Shown: one piece after another, positions 11,191 through 21,362 of the stretch
How positions within the stretch are numbered: the stretch's first letter is position 1
Layout: every line of letters starts with the position of its first letter
Source: Streptomyces sp. DG2A-72
Lineage (GTDB): Bacteria; Actinomycetota; Actinomycetes; Streptomycetales; Streptomycetaceae
Length of the DNA: 64,000 bases
Assembly (NCBI RefSeq): GCF_030499575.1
Contig: NZ_JASTLC010000001.1
Coordinates: forward strand, 496,001 to 560,000
Direction: 5' to 3'
The notes under the pieces: generated by a model
What the model saw: only the letters and a program-made list of their open reading frames with translations
Told to the model about the DNA's origin: nothing
The model's database searches: none
Position numbers and translations under genes: made by a program

Positions 11191-11360
11191 GGCCGGTCGG
11201 GGGCGCGTTGCTGCCGGCTGGTGCAGGGTGGGACGCGTCGATTCCCTCAAGTACCCCGTGATCGTGGCCTGTTCCCCAGGCGGTGACCCTCCGGGCGCCG
11301 GGCCGCTCGCCTTCTGCTTTGCTGGTGCCGTCGGGCAGGGACCTCACACGCGGGACGATC

Positions 11361-12107
11361 ATGCGGGCAGCAGTGGAGCAAGTCGCCGACGGCACCTACC
11401 TGGTGCACGGCAGCAACACGAACTGGGTGATCCTGAGCGAGGGGGACGCCGTCACGCTGATCGACACGGGCTACCCCGGGGACCGGGAGCTGCTTCTCGC
11501 TTCCCTTGCGGAGGTGGGCAGTTCGCCGGAGGCGGTGACGGCGGTACTGATCACGCACGCCCACAACGACCACCTGGGTTCCGCCGAGCACCTGCGTGGC
11601 ACGTACGGCACGCCCGTCTACCTGCACGAGGCCGAAGTGCCGCACGCCCGCCGTGATTTCCTGCACCAGGTGTCCGTCGGCCAGGTCCTCGGGAACGGCT
11701 GGCGTCCGGGCGTCCTGCCGTGGGCCGTGCATGCCCTGCGGGTCGGCGGCACCGCCCATGTCCCCGTCGCCGAACCGCAGCCGTTCCCGGCGCAGGGGCC
11801 GCTCGACCTGCCCGGCCGCCCCGTCCCCGTACACACGCCCGGCCATACGCTCGGCCACACCGCCTACCACCTCCCGGGCACCGGAGTGGTGATCTCCGGC
11901 GACGCCCTGGTCAGCGGCCACCCCACCTCGCGCGCCACGGGGCCCCAGCTGCTGCCGGGCATGTTCCATCACGAACGCGCCCGCGCCGTGACCTCGCTGG
12001 AGACCCTGGAGGGCCTCGACGGCGACGTCCTGGTCCCCGGGCACGGGCCGGTGCACCGCGGTCCAGTACGTGAGGCGGCACGGCACGCACGGGAGCGCGC
12101 ACTCTAG
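11361..12107 (+). CDS. MBL-fold metallo-hydrolase
   Basis: 248 residues from ATG 11361. The zinc-binding motif HAHNDHLG (His66, His68, Asp70, His71) is intact, followed by a further metal His in HTPGHTLGH and GD in ISGDAL, then PGHGPVH near the C-terminus. Longer open sequence upstream to 11283 runs through intergenic DNA and is unlikely to be coding. The family hydrolyses thioesters, lactones or similar; nothing here narrows the substrate. The DUF4032 gene starts 10 bp after its stop, so the two may be co-transcribed. Confidence 0.85.
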   Translation: MRAAVEQVADGTYLVHGSNTNWVILSEGDAVTLIDTGYPGDRELLLASLAEVGSSPEAVTAVLITHAHNDHLGSAEHLRGTYGTPVYLHEAEVPHARRDFLHQVSVGQVLGNGWRPGVLPWAVHALRVGGTAHVPVAEPQPFPAQGPLDLPGRPVPVHTPGHTLGHTAYHLPGTGVVISGDALVSGHPTSRATGPQLLPGMFHHERARAVTSLETLEGLDGDVLVPGHGPVHRGPVREAARHARERAL

Positions 12108-12117
12108 AGTTCTGGCC

Positions 12118-13350
12118 ATGGCATTGCAGATCAGCGCGACCAACCCGGAGCACCCCGCGCTCCTCCTCGAGCTGCCGTGGGACGTGCCCCTGGAGAAGTG
12201 GCCCGAGGAGTACCTCGTCCCGCTGCCGCGCGGCATCTCCCGCCACGTGGTGCGCTACGCCCGGGCCGGCTCCGAGGTCATCGCCGTCAAGGAGCTGGCC
12301 GAACGGCCCGCGCTGCGCGAGTACGAGCTGCTGCGCGACCTGGACCGGATCGGCATCCCCGCGGTCGACCCCCTCGCCGTGGTCACCGGCCGCGCCGACA
12401 AGGACGGGGCGCCGCTGGAACCGGTGCTGATCACCCGGCATCTGGGCGGCTCGATGCCGTACCGCTCGATGTTCGAGACGACGATGCGCCCGGCCACCAT
12501 GCACCGCCTCATGGACGCCCTGGCCGTGCTGCTCGTCCGGCTGCACCTGGCCGGGTTCGCCTGGGGCGACTGCTCGCTGTCCAACACGCTCTTCCGGCGG
12601 GACGCGGGCGCCTACGCCGCGTATCTCGTGGACGCCGAGACCGGTGATCTGCATCCGCAGCTCAGCAGCGGACAGCGCGACTACGACCTCGACCTCGCCC
12701 GGGTCAACATCAGCGGCGAGCTGCTGGACCTGGAGGCGTCGGGGGCGCTGCACCCGTCCGTCGACCCGATCGAGTTCGGCACCGAGATCTGCGGACGCTA
12801 CCGGGACCTGTGGGACGAGCTGACCCGCACCTCGGTCTACCCGGCGGGCAAGTACCACTACATAGAGCGCCGGATACGCCGCCTGAACGAGCTCGGTTTC
12901 GACGTGGCCGAGATGCAGATCGAGCACAACTCCAACGGTGACACGGTCACCTTCGTGCCCAAGGTCGTCGACGCGGGCCACCACCAGCGCCAGCTGCTCC
13001 GGCTGACCGGCCTCGACACCGAGGAGAACCAGGCGCGGCGGCTCCTGAACGACCTGGAGAGCTGGATGGCCACCCAGGACGACTACGCCCCGGGCGACCC
13101 CCTCGGCGCCCGCCCCGAGGTGCTCGCCCACCGCTGGGTGCGGGACGTGTTCCGTCCCACCGTGCGCGCGGTGCCGCCGGAGCTGCGCGGCTCGATGGAC
13201 GCGGCCGAGATCTACCACGAGCTGCTCGAACACCGCTGGTACCTGTCCGAGCGTGCCCAGCACGACATCGGGCTGGACACGGTGGTGGCGGACTACGTGA
13301 AGAACATCCTGCCCAAGACGCGCGAGACGCTGCAGCCGACAGGCGAGTGA
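12118..13350 (+). CDS. DUF4032 protein with kinase-like (Kdo/WaaP-type) fold
   Basis: 410 residues from ATG 12118. The N-terminal half resembles lipopolysaccharide-kinase-type small kinases: a Lys in VIAVKELAE, a catalytic-loop-like FAWGDCSLSNTLF, and VDAETGDL in the position of the metal-binding DFG. The C-terminal half (about 225-400) is the DUF4032 region typical of actinomycetes. Whether it phosphorylates anything is unknown. Ends 1 bp from the convergent stress-protein gene. Confidence 0.85.
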   Translation: MALQISATNPEHPALLLELPWDVPLEKWPEEYLVPLPRGISRHVVRYARAGSEVIAVKELAERPALREYELLRDLDRIGIPAVDPLAVVTGRADKDGAPLEPVLITRHLGGSMPYRSMFETTMRPATMHRLMDALAVLLVRLHLAGFAWGDCSLSNTLFRRDAGAYAAYLVDAETGDLHPQLSSGQRDYDLDLARVNISGELLDLEASGALHPSVDPIEFGTEICGRYRDLWDELTRTSVYPAGKYHYIERRIRRLNELGFDVAEMQIEHNSNGDTVTFVPKVVDAGHHQRQLLRLTGLDTEENQARRLLNDLESWMATQDDYAPGDPLGARPEVLAHRWVRDVFRPTVRAVPPELRGSMDAAEIYHELLEHRWYLSERAQHDIGLDTVVADYVKNILPKTRETLQPTGE

Positions 13351-13351
13351 C

Positions 13352-14224
13352 TCACGCGGGCGGGACCACGGCCACCGGGCAGTCCGCGTGATGCAGGATC
13401 CCGTGGGCGACCGAGCCGATCCGTGCGCCGACGGCGGTACGGCGGGCCCGGCGGCCGACGACCATCAGCTGGGCCTGCCCGGCCACCTCCAGCAGCACCT
13501 GCCCGGCGCTGCCCATCTCCACGTGCTCCACCACCGGGACGTCCGGGAAGCGGTCCCGCCACGGCTGCACCGCCGCGGCCAGTGCCTTCTTCTCGTACGG
13601 CTCCAGGCCCCCGGCCTCGTCGAGCAGCTTCAGCGAGGCCGGGCTGTAGGAGAACACCGGCGGCAGCGTCCAGGCGCGTACGGCACGGACGGTCGCCCCG
13701 CGCGCGGCTGCCGTCTCGAACGCGAACCGCAGCACGGCGGCACTGTCGTCCGGGTCGCCCTGCTGGCCCACGACGACCTGACGGCCCGCGGCCTCGGCGG
13801 CCGGCTCGTCCTCCGCCCGTACGAGGACGACGGGACCGGTGGCCCCGGCGATGACCTGCTGTCCGACCGAGCCGAGCAGGAAGCCGACGACCCGGCCGTG
13901 GCCGCGCGAGCCGAGCACCAGCATCTCGGCGTCGGCCGCCGCGGCGGCCAGGGTGTCGACCGGGCCGCCTTCGAGGACGTCGGTCGTCACGTCGAGCTCC
14001 GGGTGCCGCTCGGTGACGGTCCGGGCGGCCTCCGCCACGGCCGTGCGCACCCATCCGGCCTGGCTGTCGGCGTCCCCGGCGTCGATCGCCTCGTGCGGCT
14101 GGAACCGCCAGGCGTGCACCACCCGCAGCGGCAGCCCGCGACGGACCGCCTCGCGGGCTGCCCAGGCCAGCGCGGCGTGGCTCTCCTCCGTACCGTCGAC
14201 CCCTGCCGTGATCGGGCGTGTCAT
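13352..14224 (-). CDS. Universal stress protein, tandem UspA domains
   Basis: 290 residues made of two UspA domains (about 1-140 and 148-290). The first has the ATP-binding glycine pattern in GSRGHGRVVGFLLGSV; the second has a variant, GRRARRTAVGARIGSV, with arginines near the phosphate loop. ATG 14224 follows AGGGAGGC at good spacing; the same frame continues far upstream only as antisense of other genes. Tandem Usp proteins in actinobacteria accumulate in hypoxia, stationary phase or stress. Three exact 14-bp direct repeats lie just upstream of the ribosome binding site. Confidence 0.92.
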   Translation of the reverse strand: MTRPITAGVDGTEESHAALAWAAREAVRRGLPLRVVHAWRFQPHEAIDAGDADSQAGWVRTAVAEAARTVTERHPELDVTTDVLEGGPVDTLAAAAADAEMLVLGSRGHGRVVGFLLGSVGQQVIAGATGPVVLVRAEDEPAAEAAGRQVVVGQQGDPDDSAAVLRFAFETAAARGATVRAVRAWTLPPVFSYSPASLKLLDEAGGLEPYEKKALAAAVQPWRDRFPDVPVVEHVEMGSAGQVLLEVAGQAQLMVVGRRARRTAVGARIGSVAHGILHHADCPVAVVPPA

Positions 14225-14236
14225 GCGGCTGCCTCC

Positions 14237-14278
14237 CTGTATTGCGGTCGCTGTATTGCGGTCGCTGTATTGCGGTCG
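14237..14278. repeat. Three tandem 14-bp repeats upstream of the Usp gene
   Basis: CTGTATTGCGGTCG occurs three times with no gap (14237-14250, 14251-14264, 14265-14278) inside the 87-bp divergent region between the Usp and VOC genes. Each unit puts an AT-rich TGTATT at the same phase. It may be a regulator array or simply slippage. Confidence 0.85.
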
Positions 14279-14791: not shown

Positions 14792-16468
14792 ATGGCACAG
14801 GCCGCCGACGCAGCGCGGACCGTCATCATGACCGTCGACGACGACCCGGGAGTCTCCCGCGCCGTCGCCCGCGACCTGCGGCGCCGCTACGGCGGTTCGT
14901 ACCGGATCGTGCGCGCGGAGTCCGGCGAGTCCGCGCTGGACGCCCTGCGTGAGCTGAAGCTGCGCGGCGATCTGGTGGCCGTGATCCTGGCCGACTACCG
15001 CATGCCGCAGATGAACGGCATCGAGTTCCTGGAGCAGGCCCTGGACGTCTATCCGGGCGCACGGCGGGTGCTGCTGACCGCGTACGCGGACACGAACGCG
15101 GCGATCGACGCGATCAACGTCGTCGACCTCGACCACTATCTGCTCAAGCCGTGGGATCCGCCCGAGGAGAAGCTCTATCCGGTCCTCGACGATCTGCTGG
15201 AGGCCTGGCGGTGCAGCGACTACCGGCCGGTGCCCAGCACCAAGGTGGTCGGGCACCGCTGGTCGGCGCGTTCCTCGGACGTACGGGAGTTCCTGGCCCG
15301 CAACCAGGTGCCGTACCGCTGGTACTCGGCCGACGAACCCGAGGGGCGGCGGCTGCTGGCTGCCGCCGGTCAGGACGGGCAGCGACTGCCGGTGGTGATC
15401 ACCGCGGACGGCACGCTCCTCGTCGAGCCGGACGCGCCGGAGCTCGCCGCCCGTGTCGGGCTGGCGACCACGCCGACGGCCGACTTCTACGACCTCGTCG
15501 TGATCGGGGGCGGTCCGGCCGGGCTGGGCGCGGCGGTGTACGGAGCCTCGGAGGGGCTGCGGACGGTGCTCGTGGAGCGGTCGGCGACCGGCGGGCAGGC
15601 CGGGCAGAGTTCGCGGATCGAGAACTACCTGGGCTTCCCGGACGGCGTCTCGGGGGCGCAGCTCACCGACCGGGCCCGGCGGCAGGCCGCCAAGTTCGAC
15701 GCCGAGATCCTCACCGCGCGCGAGGTGACGGGGCTGGAGATCAGCGGCGCGGCACGGGTCGTACGGTTCTCGGACGGGTCGGCGATCGCCGCGCACAGCG
15801 TGATCCTGGCGACGGGAGTGTCGTACCGGCAGTTGCAGGCGCCGGGCACGGCCGATCTGACCGGGTGCGGGGTGTTCTACGGTTCGGCGCTGACCGAGGC
15901 GGCTTCCTGCCAGGGGCACGACGTGTACATCGTCGGCGGCGCCAACTCCGCCGGGCAGGCGGCGATGTACCTGGCCAGGGGTGCCAAGTCGGTCACCCTG
16001 CTGGTGCGCGGAACGGACCTGTCGGCGTCGATGTCGTACTACCTGACCCAGCAGATCGACGAGGCGCCCAACATCTCGGTCCGCACCTGCACCGTCGTGG
16101 AGGCCGCGCACGGTTCGGAGCGCCTGGAGCAGCTGACCCTGCGGGACACGGAGAGCGGGCGGACCGAACTCGTCGACGCGCAGTGGATGTTCGTGTTCAT
16201 CGGCGCGGCTCCGCTCACCGACTGGCTGGACGGCACCGTGCTGCGGGACGAGCACGGGTTCATCCTGGCCGGGCCCGATCTCTCCCCGGACGGGCGGCCG
16301 CCGGCGGGCTGGGAGCTGGACCGGCCGCCGTACCACCTGGAGACCAACATCCCCGGCGTGTTCGTGGCGGGCGACGCGCGTGCCGAGTCCGCCAAGCGCG
16401 TCGCGTCCGCCGTCGGAGAGGGAGCCATGGCCGTGATGCTCGTCCACCGGTATCTGGAGCAGTCGTGA
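14792..16468 (+). CDS. Fused response regulator / thioredoxin-reductase-like flavoprotein
   Basis: 558 residues from ATG 14792 (GGGAG 6 bp upstream). Order: receiver domain 10-140 with Asp16-Asp18 and phospho-acceptor Asp68 in ILADYRMP; a middle region 150-225 resembling a glutaredoxin-type fold (VVGHRWSARSSDVREFLARN) with no CxxC; then a thioredoxin-reductase-like FAD/NAD(P)H module 233-555 with IGGGPAGLG, GGQAGQSSRIENYLGFP, YIVGGANSAGQAA and a C-terminal GVFVAGDAR. The redox-active CATC of true thioredoxin reductases is replaced by GVFYGSALTEAAS. It is likely an NAD(P)H-flavin enzyme or sensor controlled by phosphorylation from the next gene's kinase. Its stop overlaps the kinase start. Confidence 0.93.
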   Translation: MAQAADAARTVIMTVDDDPGVSRAVARDLRRRYGGSYRIVRAESGESALDALRELKLRGDLVAVILADYRMPQMNGIEFLEQALDVYPGARRVLLTAYADTNAAIDAINVVDLDHYLLKPWDPPEEKLYPVLDDLLEAWRCSDYRPVPSTKVVGHRWSARSSDVREFLARNQVPYRWYSADEPEGRRLLAAAGQDGQRLPVVITADGTLLVEPDAPELAARVGLATTPTADFYDLVVIGGGPAGLGAAVYGASEGLRTVLVERSATGGQAGQSSRIENYLGFPDGVSGAQLTDRARRQAAKFDAEILTAREVTGLEISGAARVVRFSDGSAIAAHSVILATGVSYRQLQAPGTADLTGCGVFYGSALTEAASCQGHDVYIVGGANSAGQAAMYLARGAKSVTLLVRGTDLSASMSYYLTQQIDEAPNISVRTCTVVEAAHGSERLEQLTLRDTESGRTELVDAQWMFVFIGAAPLTDWLDGTVLRDEHGFILAGPDLSPDGRPPAGWELDRPPYHLETNIPGVFVAGDARAESAKRVASAVGEGAMAVMLVHRYLEQS

Positions 16469-17922
16469 GCGGGCAGCCGATGCCGTGCAGCCCCGCGGAG
16501 ATCGGTTCGCTGTTCCTGTTCGAGAAGCTGTCCGCCGATCAGCTCGGGCAGCTGTGCAGTGCGGGGCGGGTGGAGAAGTTCGAGCCCGGGCCCGTGTACA
16601 CCGAGGGCGAGCCGGCCACCTGCTTCTACGTGATGATCGAGGGCACGGTGGTGCTCTCCCGCCGGGTCGGCGTCGACGACGTGGAGGTCACCCGCACCTC
16701 GCAGCGCGGGGTGTACGCGGGGTCCATGCAGGCGTATCTCGGGGACCGGGTGCGCCAGGTCTACAACAGCTCCATGCGGGTCACGGAGCCCACACGTTTC
16801 TTCGTGGTGCCCGCCGAGGAGTTCGCGGCCTTCATGCAGCAGTGGTTCCCCATGGCGGTCCACCTGCTGGAAGGGCTCTTCTTCGGCTCGAAGAACACCC
16901 AGCGGGCCATCGGGGAGCGCGAACGGCTGCTGGCGCTCGGGTCGTTGTCGGCCGGTCTGACGCACGAGCTCAACAACCCGGCCGCGGCGGCCGTACGAGC
17001 CACCGCGACGCTCCGGGAGCGGGTGGGCAAGATGCGGCACAAGCTCGCCGTCATCGCCCAGGGCTCCTACTCCCCCGAGGTCATGGCGAACCTCATCGAC
17101 ATCCAGGAACGCACCGCCGAACGCGTCGCCAAGGCACCAGTGCTGACTCCCCTGGAAGCCGCCGACCGGGAAGACGCCCTCACCGACTGGCTCAACGACC
17201 ACGGCATCCCGGAGGGCTGGCGGATCGCGCCGACCTTCGTGCAGGCCGGTATCGACACCGACTGGCTCGACCAGATCGCGGCGGCCGTGGACGAGGAGAT
17301 CCTGCCGAACGCGATCGGGTGGCTCAACTACACCGTCGAGACCGAGCTGTTGATGGACGAGATCAACGACTCCACCAACCGCGTCTCCCACCTCGTCGAC
17401 GCCGCCAAGCAGTACTCACAGCTCGACCGGGCGCCCTACCAGGTCGCCGACGTGCACGAACTCCTCGACAGCACACTGCTGATGCTCTCGGGCAAGATCG
17501 GGGAGCGGATCAAGGTCGTCAAGGAGTACGACCGTACGCTCCCGAAGATCCCGGCGTACCCGGCGGAGCTCAACCAGGTGTGGACCAACCTGATCGACAA
17601 CGCGGTCCACGCGATCAACGACGCGGGCGACGAAGGGACGTTGACCGTGCGGACGGCGCTCCAACACGAACGGTTGCTGGTGGAGTTCCGTGACACCGGG
17701 CCGGGCGTGCCCAAGGAGATCCGCAGCCGTATCTTCGACCCCTTCTTCACCACCAAGCCGGTGGGCGAGGGCACCGGGCTCGGCCTGGACATCTCCTGGC
17801 GGATCGTCGTCAACAAGCACCACGGCACGCTTCAGGTCGAGTCCGAGCCGGGCGACACGCGCTTTCAGGTGCTGCTTCCGCTGGTCGCGTCCGCGAACGA
17901 CCTGCCCGAGGAGGCCGTATGA
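16465..17922 (+). CDS. Soluble histidine kinase with N-terminal cyclic-nucleotide-binding domain
   Basis: 485 residues. GTG 16465 overlaps the upstream TGA (GTGA); ATG 16480 is an alternative. cNMP-type beta-roll at about 14-128, a helical linker, HisKA-like segment with His167 in SAGLTHELNNPAAAAVR, an unusual insertion of about 120 residues, then HATPase_c with NLIDNAVHAI, DTGPGVP and GEGTGLGLDIS. There is no transmembrane segment, so the signal is cytoplasmic. It is presumably the kinase for the receiver domain of the flavoprotein encoded just upstream. Ends with an ATGA overlap to the zinc-finger gene. Confidence 0.92.
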   Translation: MSGQPMPCSPAEIGSLFLFEKLSADQLGQLCSAGRVEKFEPGPVYTEGEPATCFYVMIEGTVVLSRRVGVDDVEVTRTSQRGVYAGSMQAYLGDRVRQVYNSSMRVTEPTRFFVVPAEEFAAFMQQWFPMAVHLLEGLFFGSKNTQRAIGERERLLALGSLSAGLTHELNNPAAAAVRATATLRERVGKMRHKLAVIAQGSYSPEVMANLIDIQERTAERVAKAPVLTPLEAADREDALTDWLNDHGIPEGWRIAPTFVQAGIDTDWLDQIAAAVDEEILPNAIGWLNYTVETELLMDEINDSTNRVSHLVDAAKQYSQLDRAPYQVADVHELLDSTLLMLSGKIGERIKVVKEYDRTLPKIPAYPAELNQVWTNLIDNAVHAINDAGDEGTLTVRTALQHERLLVEFRDTGPGVPKEIRSRIFDPFFTTKPVGEGTGLGLDISWRIVVNKHHGTLQVESEPGDTRFQVLLPLVASANDLPEEAV

Positions 17923-18272
17923 CGAGCGACAACATGATCGACCCGACTGTTCCGCCCAGTGGCATGGGGTGTGTGGAGTGCGACGAGGTCGGCGGGTGGT
18001 GGTTCCATCTGCGGCGGTGTGCGCAGTGCGGGCACATCGGTTGCTGCGACTCGTCGCCGGCGAAGCATGCGACCGCGCATTTCCGGGAGACCGGGCATCC
18101 TGTGGTGCGTAGTTTCGAGCCGGGTGAGGAGTGGTTCTGGAACTATGCGACGTCCGAGATGTATGAGGCGGGGCCGGAGCTCGCACCTCCGGTGAGTCAT
18201 CCGGCTGATCAGCCGGCGCCGGGCCCTGCCGGGCGGGTGCCGGAGGATTGGGCGCGGGTGTTGAAGGGCTGA
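17919..18272 (+). CDS. UBP-type zinc finger protein
   Basis: 117 residues, ATG overlapping the kinase stop. Cysteine and histidine spacing (CVEC at about 18-21, CAQC and GCC 13-22 residues later, HATAHFRETGHPVV) matches the ZnF-UBP fold, which in eukaryotic deubiquitinases binds a free C-terminal Gly-Gly. Bacteria lack ubiquitin, so the ligand is open. The C-terminal 40 residues are Pro-rich and probably unstructured. Position as third gene of the flavoprotein/kinase operon is the main functional clue. Confidence 0.88.
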   Translation: MTSDNMIDPTVPPSGMGCVECDEVGGWWFHLRRCAQCGHIGCCDSSPAKHATAHFRETGHPVVRSFEPGEEWFWNYATSEMYEAGPELAPPVSHPADQPAPGPAGRVPEDWARVLKG

Positions 18273-18416: not shown

Positions 18417-21362
18417 GTGCTGCAGACCACCGCGTTTACCTCGCCCATCGTTGGCCGGGAGGATGAGCTTGCTCGTCTTTCCGGTGTGCTGGAGCGTGCC
18501 CGGGGTGGTGAGGCTCGGGCTGTTCTGATTGCCGGGGATGCCGGGGTCGGGAAGACGCGGGTGTTGGATGAGGTGTCGGCGCGGGCTGCTGGCGCTGGGA
18601 TGACGGTGCTGACCGGGCATTGTGTGGATCTCGGTGACGTGGGGCTGCCGTATCTGCCGTTCAGCGAGGTGCTGGGGGTGCTTGCCGCTGACGAGCGGTT
18701 TGCGGCCGTGGTGGCGGCGCATCCGGCGGTGGAGCGGTTGCTGGGTGGCGGGTCGGACGACGGTGGGCGGGTGCGGCTGTTCGAGGGTGTGGCGGGGCTG
18801 CTGGCCGATCTGGCGGATGTCGCTCCGCTGCTGCTCGTGCTGGAGGATCTGCACTGGGCGGATCAGTCCTCGCGGGATCTGCTGCGGTTCCTGCTCAGCC
18901 GCGGCATCCTGCAGCGGGCCGCGGGCGGTGCGCCCACGCATCGGCTGGCGGTGCTCGCTTCGTACCGGGCGGACGATCTGCATCGGCGGCATCCCTTGCG
19001 TCCGCTGCTCGCCGAGCTGGTGCGGCTGCCCGCTGTCGAGCGGCTGGAGCTTCGGCCCATGGCCGATCCCGACGTGGCCCGGCTGGTGCGCGGGCTGCGG
19101 GAGCGTCCGGTGCCGGACACGACGGTCCGCCGGATCGTGGAGCGCGCCGAGGGCAACGCCTTCTACGCGGAGGAGCTGCTGGCCGCCACGGACGCGGAGG
19201 CGGGCGGGGTGCCCAGCGGGCTGGCCGATGTCCTCCTCATCCGTTTCGAGCAGCTGACCGACACGGCCCAGCAGGTGCTGCGTACGGCCGCCGTCGCCGG
19301 GCGGCGGGTCGAGCACGATCTGCTGCGGGACGCGGTCGGGCTCCCCGAGGACGAGCTGGAGTCGGCGCTGCGGGAGGCCGTGGAGCGGCAACTCCTGGTC
19401 TCCGGGGGCGGCGACACGTACTCCTTCCGCCATGCCCTGGCCCGGGAGGCGGTGTACGCCGATCTGCTGCCGGGTGAACGGGCGCGGCTGCACGGTGCGT
19501 TCGCCCGGCTGCTGTCCCGCCGGGGGCACCGCGCGGAGACCGCGGCCGAGCGCGCCCACCACTATCGCGCGAGTCATGATCTGGCCGAGGCCCTGGCCGC
19601 GTCGCTGGAGGCCGCCGACCACGCCCATCGGCTCGGTGCTCCCGCCGAGGAACTCCGGCACCTGGAAGCCGCGCTCGACGTGTGGTCGTCGGTGGACCCG
19701 GCCGCGCGGCCTTCCGGCGAGGGCATCGACAGGGTGACGCTGACCTTGCGGGCCTCCGCCGCGGCGGCGCACGCCGGGGAGACGCACCGCGCGGTCTCCC
19801 TCACCCGTGCCGCGCTGGCGGGCATCGGCCAGGACGCGGACTCCGAGCTCGCCGCCCGGGTGCGCTACACGCTCGCCGGGAACCTGATCAGCGTCGACAA
19901 CCTGACGGCGGCGTTCGCGTACAGCAGCGAGGCGCTCGCTCTGATCCCCGCCGAACCCGCCTCGCGGACCTGGGTGTGGGCGGCGGCCACCCATGTGATG
20001 GCGGCCCGCCAGGTCGGAGAGACCGAGATCGCGCTGCGGGTCGCCCGCCAGGCGCTGGGCATCGCGGAGCAGTTGCGGGTGACCGACGCCCAGGCCGACC
20101 TGCTGATCTCGCTGGCCACGCTCGAAGGCGGCCGCCGACGCACCCCCGAAAACCGCGCGCGGCTGAAGGAGGCCCGGGAGCTGGCTCGGAGGTCGGGCAA
20201 CGCGCCGGTGGAGTTGCGTGCCCTGTTCAACCTCGCCATGGGCTTTTTCGAGTCCGGCGATCTGGAGGAGTGCCTGCCCTGGCTGACCGAGGGCCTGGAC
20301 CGCGCCCGCCGCGCCGGTCTGCTGTCCTCGCCGTATCCGCTGGAGATGCGCTATCTGCACCTGCTGGTGCTGTACACCCTGGGCCGCTGGGACGAGTGCC
20401 TGCGCGCGGCGGCGAGTGACGCCGCGGTGCTGCCGACGGCCGGCGGCTATACGGCGGGTCCCGCGCTGAACGTCGCCTTGGCGCGCGGCGACTTCAAGGC
20501 AGCCGACCGTGCGCGCGCCCTGCTTCAGGGGCCGTTCGACTGGATGGCCACGCTCGTCGCGGGAATCGTGCTGACGGACACCGCCGCGCTGCTCGGCGAT
20601 GCGGACGAGGCCGTGGCGCAGATGCGGTCCACCGTCGCGGCGCTCACCGATGACGCGGGTACGCCGCCCGACGTGACGGTCCGGCTCGCCGCGCTCGCCC
20701 TGTCCGCCGTCGCCGACTCGGCCGTCGATCTGCGCCGCACCGGCGACGAGGCGGGGGCCCGCCGCCGGGCGCAGACGGCGGGCGAGTTGGTGGAGCTGGC
20801 GCGAGATGTGGCCGGGCACGGCGACGACGGCATTCCGCAGGGTCCGGAGGGGCAGGCCTGGCTGGCCCGGGCGGAAGCGGAGTGGGCGCGGGCCGTGTCC
20901 GGTCCGGACGCGGAGGCGTGGGGGAAGGCGGTGGCCGCGTTCGACTACGGCGACGCGTATGAGCGGGCGCGCTGCCGACTGCGGTTCGCCGAGGCCCTGT
21001 TGGCGGCCGAGCGGCGCGAGGAAGCGGCCGTCGAGGCAGGCGCGGCCCGGGAGACGGCCGCCGAACTCCGCGCCACGCCGCTGTTGGAGCGGGCGGACGC
21101 CCTCATACGCCGCGGCAGGCTGTCGGACCGGGACGACCACGGCACGTCCCTGCTCACCTCCCGCGAGCAGGACGTCCTGCGGCTCCTCGCCCTCGGCCGC
21201 AGCAACCGGCAGATAGGCGAGGAGCTGTTCATCACCGGCAAGACGGCGAGCGTCCACGTCTCCAACATTCTCGGCAAGCTGGGCGCCGCGAGCCGCACCG
21301 AGGCCGTGGCGATCGCCTACCGCCGGGGCCTGATCACCCCGGAGCCGACGGCATCCGGCTGA
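18417..21362 (+). CDS. LAL-type LuxR-family regulator (large ATP-binding)
   Basis: 981 residues from GTG 18417. N-terminal AAA/NACHT-like ATPase with Walker A GDAGVGKT at 40-47 and Walker B LLLVLEDLHWADQ near 140, a long TPR-like helical middle region, and a C-terminal LuxR helix-turn-helix beginning LTSREQDVLRLLALGRSNRQ and containing KTASVHVSNILGKL. LAL proteins are often pathway activators in Streptomyces, but no biosynthetic cluster is adjacent, so the target is unknown. Confidence 0.95.
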   Translation: MLQTTAFTSPIVGREDELARLSGVLERARGGEARAVLIAGDAGVGKTRVLDEVSARAAGAGMTVLTGHCVDLGDVGLPYLPFSEVLGVLAADERFAAVVAAHPAVERLLGGGSDDGGRVRLFEGVAGLLADLADVAPLLLVLEDLHWADQSSRDLLRFLLSRGILQRAAGGAPTHRLAVLASYRADDLHRRHPLRPLLAELVRLPAVERLELRPMADPDVARLVRGLRERPVPDTTVRRIVERAEGNAFYAEELLAATDAEAGGVPSGLADVLLIRFEQLTDTAQQVLRTAAVAGRRVEHDLLRDAVGLPEDELESALREAVERQLLVSGGGDTYSFRHALAREAVYADLLPGERARLHGAFARLLSRRGHRAETAAERAHHYRASHDLAEALAASLEAADHAHRLGAPAEELRHLEAALDVWSSVDPAARPSGEGIDRVTLTLRASAAAAHAGETHRAVSLTRAALAGIGQDADSELAARVRYTLAGNLISVDNLTAAFAYSSEALALIPAEPASRTWVWAAATHVMAARQVGETEIALRVARQALGIAEQLRVTDAQADLLISLATLEGGRRRTPENRARLKEARELARRSGNAPVELRALFNLAMGFFESGDLEECLPWLTEGLDRARRAGLLSSPYPLEMRYLHLLVLYTLGRWDECLRAAASDAAVLPTAGGYTAGPALNVALARGDFKAADRARALLQGPFDWMATLVAGIVLTDTAALLGDADEAVAQMRSTVAALTDDAGTPPDVTVRLAALALSAVADSAVDLRRTGDEAGARRRAQTAGELVELARDVAGHGDDGIPQGPEGQAWLARAEAEWARAVSGPDAEAWGKAVAAFDYGDAYERARCRLRFAEALLAAERREEAAVEAGAARETAAELRATPLLERADALIRRGRLSDRDDHGTSLLTSREQDVLRLLALGRSNRQIGEELFITGKTASVHVSNILGKLGAASRTEAVAIAYRRGLITPEPTASG

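Follow-up and report, generated by a model that had tools for sequence, protein, structure and literature searches.

A receiver-flavoprotein, a soluble histidine kinase and a UBP-type zinc finger in overlapping genes of Streptomyces: a candidate two-component system with a flavin output

Fusions of a receiver domain to a thioredoxin reductase (TrxR) have already been described, from two Heimdallarchaeota, as a 'Mycobacterium-like combination' (PMC5847659, in excerpt), and ATII-TrxR, in which the TrxR is joined to a cyclic nucleotide monophosphate (cNMP)-type domain, is described in excerpts of PMC6544261 as a dimeric flavin adenine dinucleotide (FAD) enzyme that accepts NADPH and NADH. Here we analyze a locus of Streptomyces sp. 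DG2A-72 (genome, 10.6 Mb) at which a receiver/TrxR-like protein (gene A) is encoded together with a soluble-type histidine kinase (gene B) and a UBP-type zinc finger protein (gene C). The locus lies in a 64,000-nucleotide window, by which we mean the whole stretch of DNA analyzed (contig NZ_JASTLC010000001.1, positions 496,001 to 560,000 of the forward strand), and coordinates are those of the window. We propose, with a probability of roughly 0.55, that the three genes encode a single two-component system with an NAD(P)H-FAD module as output, and that the zinc finger is accessory to this system. The original prediction for this locus had referred to annotations of receiver/thioredoxin reductase fusions, an architecture that the excerpts of PMC5847659 indeed describe. 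No paper on the whole three-gene set was found among the matches listed in the open-licence PMC literature.

Gene organization and co-occurrence

Gene A (14792..16468, + strand), which starts with the ATG at 14792, preceded by ggtgggag, and stops with the TGA at 16466-16468, encodes a protein of 558 amino acids with a receiver, a glutaredoxin-like and a TrxR-like FAD/NAD(P) part (AlphaFold2 mean pLDDT 89.8). Gene B (16465..17922, +) starts with the GTG at 16465 and encodes 485 amino acids (model mean pLDDT 87.2), and gene C (17919..18272, +) starts with the ATG at 17919 and encodes 117. The A stop and B start overlap in GTGA (16465..16468, +), the B stop and C start in ATGA (17919..17922, +). 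Coordinates, strand and Pfam domains all agree with the three overlapping genes that had been proposed; the glutaredoxin-like middle of A and a conserved helical insert of B are two parts that the proposal did not contain. The 4-base A-B overlap is also present in all seven other Streptomyces loci examined (L157-L162, L214) and in Tsukamurella (L216), and the B-C overlap was scored in seven of these eight, the exception being L162. The zinc-finger gene of that locus (L045/L162, genome G023) is broken by a frameshift, which may be a sequencing error or decay. The domain content suggests that the system is cytoplasmic.

To follow the genes across Actinomycetota, 246 genomes were searched for A (E <= 1e-60), B (E <= 1e-40) and the zinc finger family PF02148 (E <= 1e-4), with matches in 61, 35 and 61 genomes, respectively; the A and B searches scored at most 5-6 first-look candidates per genome, and paralogues may escape these counts. 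A was present in all 35 genomes with B, and B in none of the 185 genomes lacking A. Of the 51 B matches, 46 share the strand of an A that is no more than 5 kb away: 36 at a distance of 200 bases or less and 10 as tandem copies. The other 5 are found elsewhere. Six genomes have tandem copies of B next to A, and 12 keep all three genes contiguous, including the window's own and one (G094) in which B and C are one protein; G023, with its frameshifted C, is not among the 12. A and the zinc finger occur together in 47 genomes, A alone in 14, the finger alone in 14 and neither in 171 (Fisher 2e-25, P values in this analysis being uncorrected for descent). The contiguous set was also found on S. fungicidicus and Tsukamurella plasmids, and a Nostoc plasmid carries a receiver-type A followed by B, near which (L215) the motif scan printed no zinc finger. 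The idea of a joint system would have been hard to hold for genes that rarely meet; this objection fails, because B was never found without A, is usually adjacent to it, and the three genes are often contiguous. Judged from these genomes, A-B-C is a conserved unit. The zinc finger appears to be used elsewhere as well, since A or B is found at a distance of up to 5 kb for just 22 of the 85 fingers.

Kinase and receiver

The receiver of A (14825..15163, +; residues 12-124; PF00072 Response_reg, 3.1e-14) holds the phosphorylation residues D16, D17, D68, T96 and K119. Asp68 (codon 14993-14995, +) occupies the phospho-acceptor position, as had been predicted, and is invariant among 29 receiver-type A proteins, a set chosen by its acidic motif. 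B combines a cNMP-binding-type domain (16594..16842, +; residues 44-126; PF00027, 7.1e-8) with a HATPase domain (17563..17883, +; residues 367-473; PF02518 HATPase_c, 1.3e-23), and a HisKA match at 158-186 falls below its cut-off. The H-box residue His167 (phospho-acceptor codon 16963-16965, +) is conserved in all 44 aligned B sequences, window B included, with the HATPase motifs retained. The helical insert between the helices of the dimerization and histidine phosphotransfer (DHp) domain (17062..17304, +; about residues 200-280), which has no Pfam match, is modelled with helices at 204-222, 229-245, 251-260 and 265-274, and its E236 is invariant in the 44 sequences.

Cyclic-nucleotide domains carry a phosphate-binding cassette of the form Gly-Glu ... 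Arg-x-Ala. In our alignment no such cassette was recognisable in window B or its Streptomyces clade, on which ground cAMP sensing by B is not favoured; cassette-like sequence was confined to a handful of relatives, among them L175, L176 and L138. One hint of a nucleotide signal comes from a gene beside tandem kinases in four genomes (L156, L169, L170, L173), all from a single actinobacterial family; its products belong to one cluster. The only copy scanned (L170:7082-7759) matches the DAC (diadenylate cyclase) family PF02457 at 2.2e-21. DAC proteins have the motifs DGA and RHR; in the four DAC-like sequences DGA is kept and the expected RHR reads RHM. Genes for a DUF924 protein and a major facilitator superfamily transporter were also noted near an A-B-B(-B) cluster with the DAC-domain protein.

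Receiver integrity varies with the presence of the kinase. Of 33 A proteins with a neighbouring kinase, 32 have the full set of five phosphorylation residues and the 33rd is a fragment; of 30 without one, a single protein has the full set. The count covers the 63 receiver-type rows whose query start is at or before residue 31, the truncated L152 not being among them. The lone kinase-less A with a complete receiver, L207, stops 545 bases short of its contig end, and a B piece of that genome begins another contig. Among the 30 kinase-less receivers Asp68 is kept in 13 and Ser/Thr96 in 6, so that decay, as read from these residues, is partial and uneven. The aspartate is gone in 17 of 30, and many, such as L146, L177 and L189, are broken pseudo-receivers. 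We read this covariation as receiver chemistry that is retained with the kinase and decays without it; kinase B probably controls flavoprotein A by phosphorylation.

The flavoprotein and the zinc finger

The TrxR-like part of A (15482..16465, +; about residues 231-558; Pyr_redox_2, 1.3e-30, 233-544) has FAD GxGxxG glycines (G239/G241/G244) that are invariant in 64 sequences, as are N385-S386-A387 and G527-D528. The NAD(P)H motifs of TrxR are named GxGxxA and HRRxxxR in excerpts of PMC10880999; in A the first reads GGANSA, alanine replacing the glycine at its third position, and the position of the second reads VRGTDLS. By sequence, the flavin site appears to be kept in A, and the NAD(P)H site in part. 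The TrxR-type CxxC of the NAD(P)H-binding part was found in none of 73 aligned A proteins, an alignment that includes window A, leaves out L001, L025 and L041-L048 as duplicates or partial sequences, and contains one row (L061) without residues at that place; L107 carries one CxxC elsewhere in its sequence. The glutaredoxin-like part (15239..15463, +; about residues 150-224) shows its strand/helix order in the AlphaFold2 model, and PF00462, not reported for window A in the Pfam scan, matches the Nostoc orthologue L215 at 1.6e-5. In window A, S158 and S161 replace the active-site cysteines. These positions read S-S in 25, S-T in 3 and A-S in 1 of the 29 receiver-type A proteins, none of which has a glutaredoxin active-site CxxC or CxxS there.

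Both NCBIfam models for the closest enzymes score A below cut-off, TIGR01292 (TrxR) at 213.6 bits against 343.45 and TIGR03140 (AhpF) at 161.7 against 502.9; together with the missing CxxC, these scores rule out that A is an ordinary TrxB or AhpF. What had been predicted as a TrxR-like flavoprotein therefore stands in its fold and FAD glycines but not in its disulfide chemistry. Since no aligned A has the TrxR CxxC, plain disulfide reduction is unlikely, and by its residues the flavin module has lost normal TrxR chemistry. In a structure comparison whose alignments lay mainly in residues 228-558 (A) and 119-476 (B), the A model superposed on 5mh4, a TrxR entry titled FR conformation, with a root mean square deviation of 1.7, and on 5mjk, titled FO, with 7.6; this better FR fit is only suggestive.

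The N-terminal domain of the flavoprotein is exchanged among relatives. GTDB species genomes were scanned with the bacterial zinc-finger family, which gave at least 595 stretches, 592 of them confirmed; we considered the best 80, ranked by likeness to 2ida. In 43 of these 80 the finger has an A-like flavoprotein no more than 1 kb away, on the same strand in 39 cases. By group, the 43 are 39/52 alphaproteobacterial, 2/5 gammaproteobacterial and 1/6 betaproteobacterial loci and 1 actinobacterium, against 0/16 among the remaining loci, which come from other groups. In all three such relatives tested (L062, L122 and the actinobacterial L149) the N-terminal domain is of the cNMP type (PF00027), the type which in receiver-type operons is placed on the kinase. 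A B-like match above 60 bits was found in just 4 of the 80 loci. Because the N-terminal domain is swapped and the flavoprotein retained, we assign the input to the sensor and the output to the flavoprotein; likewise, B-like matches being so few and flavoprotein-finger neighbours so many, the flavoprotein would be the constant part and the N-terminal domain a variable input.

The zinc finger of C (17970-18161, +; residues 18-81) scores 54.3 bits with zf-UBP (PF02148, 1.6e-14) against a Pfam cut-off of 22.7, and its close bacterial relative is 2ida (2.9e-27). The arginine of the CGR motif, which we take to be USP5 R221 and HDAC6 R1155, is central to ubiquitin-tail binding by UBP fingers. USP16 GCGR aligns with bacterial GCCD (the Asp44 codon of C is at 18048-18050, +), and among 109 distinct bacterial stretches, found with a pattern that demanded LR before the second cysteine pair and so left divergent fingers uncounted, the arginine position holds Asp in 107, Asn in 1 and Glu in 1, with Arg or Lys in none. 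Another alignment of C places the USP5 Arg against His39, again not Arg. Recognition of a Gly-Gly protein tail, which had been suggested for C, is therefore not favoured, nor is reading of a Pup tail, since 52 of the 80 best finger loci are alphaproteobacterial and the Arg is missing; Alphaproteobacteria are not known to have Pup, nor the bacteria carrying these fingers ubiquitin.

What C might bind instead is suggested by one fusion: L175:6777-8441 (G094:C13) is a single 555-residue open reading frame with cNMP-type, kinase and zf-UBP domains. The B/C-fusion query matched 6 of the 36 genomes of that order and, past residue 489, G094 alone, so that no kinase-zinc finger fusion was found among the 36 outside G094. 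C probably belongs to the complex. The window genome holds two more zinc fingers, distant from its single A. Elsewhere, a cation/proton antiporter that has a TrkA_N domain carries a UBP zinc finger at its C terminus (L125:6300-8225); a KefB-type antiporter as general finger partner was rejected, this being a single fusion to which a tblastn of the loci added no second.

Proposed signal flow, rival readings and known relatives

Gene structure, predicted folds, conservation, co-occurrence and the covariation of kinase and receiver are the observations from which we infer the following route. B would read an intracellular signal through its cNMP-type domain, autophosphorylate at His167 and pass the phosphate to Asp68 of A. 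Phosphorylation of the receiver would then alter how the NAD(P)H-FAD module joined to it works or assembles. Another electron acceptor would be needed for the reduced flavin, because A has no TrxR-type disulfide; electrons could go to oxygen, a quinone, a partner protein, or into chemistry at a lone cysteine. For C we envisage an accessory role in the complex, with the kinase as its most likely binding partner; recognition of free Gly-Gly tails would not be its function. We also hold tentatively, at somewhat less than even odds, a more specific version: a TrxR fold that once served disulfide reduction would have become an NAD(P)H-flavin switch or oxidase under phosphorylation control, and a UBP finger without Gly-Gly recognition would have joined the kinase or flavoprotein as a partner.

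Several observations weigh against a single system. Most zinc fingers (63 of 85) have neither A nor B at a distance of up to 5 kb, and for 31 of the 66 A matches that carry a receiver part no B was found at up to 1 kb; a fusion of kinase and zinc finger was met once; and, as noted, 13 of 30 kinase-less receivers retain Asp68. In a tree of the flavoprotein part, which omits L209, L152, L191, L196 and L180 and gives L207 no kinase/receiver label, 26 of 28 kinase-less receiver rows form one clade, leaving 1 independent pair (2 if support is ignored) and a sign test that is not significant. Because the kinase-less rows are mostly one clade, the kinase/receiver pattern is complete but statistically weak. 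The counts of distant fingers and of A without B would suit co-transcribed stress-response genes that share no mechanism, a reading we consider very improbable in view of the absence of B from genomes lacking A, the tandem copies of B beside A in six genomes, the 4-base overlaps and the one kinase-finger fusion.

Also against a lost disulfide chemistry stands the report, in excerpts of PMC6544261, that the related ATII-TrxR reduces DTNB and its own thioredoxin with NADPH, and disulfide chemistry is on that account possible in the wider family. A itself might then remain a kinase-controlled thiol reductase that passes FAD electrons to thioredoxin or another disulfide through Cys373 (codon 15908-15910, +) or a partner. 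Cys373 is present in 67 of the 73 A proteins of the first alignment, and three cysteines named for ATII-TrxR in excerpts of PMC6544261 (Cys206, Cys223, Cys376) fit those of a Cupriavidus metallidurans relative at columns 204, 221 and 373, at an offset of 21 judged by eye and spacing and with ATII Cys467 unmatched. On Rhodococcus sp. DK180 plasmid pDK4 (L226), trxA and clpB lie beside an A-like gene, apparently of the cNMP type, and a zinc finger. Against this, window A has T204 and R221, not cysteines, and cysteine pairs at 204 + 221 and at 373 + 482 occur in 0/29 receiver-type A proteins versus 27/44 and 32/44 A proteins from zinc-finger loci. In a broader set Cys373 is found in 25 of the 33 kinase-linked A proteins with a residue there, and position 373 is mostly Met or Leu-type in kinase-less receiver-type A. 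The host genome, moreover, has a separate TrxR with WCATC (G000:C1:5082568), and the TIGR01292 score of A is far below its cut-off. Thiol activity may occur in the wider family and is less likely in receiver-type A; we consider a thiol reductase rather unlikely for the window protein. We think it more doubtful still that A is a redox or NAD(P)H sensor whose flavin gates the receiver or kinase, with C or an unlinked protein as output. Such reverse flow would fit the absence of catalytic cysteines from both redox parts of A, the kinase-finger fusion L175, which would suit an output on the kinase side, and the next gene downstream on the same strand (18417-21359, +), which encodes an AAA_16/LuxR-type regulator. 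That regulator, however, begins 144 bases past C and is replaced by a CAP-domain gene in S. fungicidicus, for which reason it is not counted into the unit, and the finger loci keep the flavoprotein (43/80) far more often than a B-like kinase (4/80). The phosphorelay from B to A remains the reading we prefer.

Neighbouring genes add some context. In the upstream region at 13352-14260 (minus strand) and 11283-13350 (plus strand) of the window, a universal stress protein gene (PF00582, 3.7e-50) is divergent, and MBL-fold, DUF4032 and universal-stress genes stand in the same order upstream of A-B-C in S. fungicidicus. On the Tsukamurella plasmid, a same-strand gene annotated S-(hydroxymethyl)mycothiol dehydrogenase follows A-B-C (L216:6399-7484). 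On pDK4, the A-like gene and finger come directly after grpE, a J-domain gene, cbpM, clpB and trxA, a heat-shock-like cluster. Thioredoxin was rejected as a general neighbour, since a strict motif scan of L057-L176 and of L213 upward found it at three loci (L226, L148, L071).

If the proposal is right, this two-component system would act on a flow of electrons instead of on transcription, and bacterial UBP zinc fingers would have defined partners and a function outside ubiquitin that can be tested. The A family was found in Actinomycetota, in a cyanobacterium and, with a swapped sensor, in proteobacteria, and the three proteins seem soluble and of a size suited to reconstitution in vitro.

Among described proteins, C shares the zf-UBP family, by Pfam, with the fingers of USP5, USP16, HDAC6 and 2ida; ubiquitin-binding fingers have the CGR arginine, whereas the family of C has Asp there. 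A differs from TrxB and AhpF in lacking CxxC in its TrxR-like part, in having none at its glutaredoxin-like site and in scoring below the NCBIfam cut-offs. In a relative from Cupriavidus metallidurans the homology to A spans the glutaredoxin-like and TrxR-like parts, and the motif scan showed no zinc finger near its gene (L213); this protein is presumably the 87% relative named in excerpts of PMC6544261. ATII-TrxR resembles A in joining an N-terminal regulatory domain to a TrxR-like part, and differs in having a cNMP-type domain in place of the receiver and cysteines at columns 204 and 221; the excerpts of that account mention no kinase. The fusions of PMC5847659 have the same domain pair as A and are presented there as response regulators with an enzymatic output, in excerpts silent on the missing CxxC, the dedicated kinase and the zinc finger, all features of A-B-C. 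The receiver-TrxR architecture was already known, and A-B-C is a variant of it with a kinase and a zinc finger.

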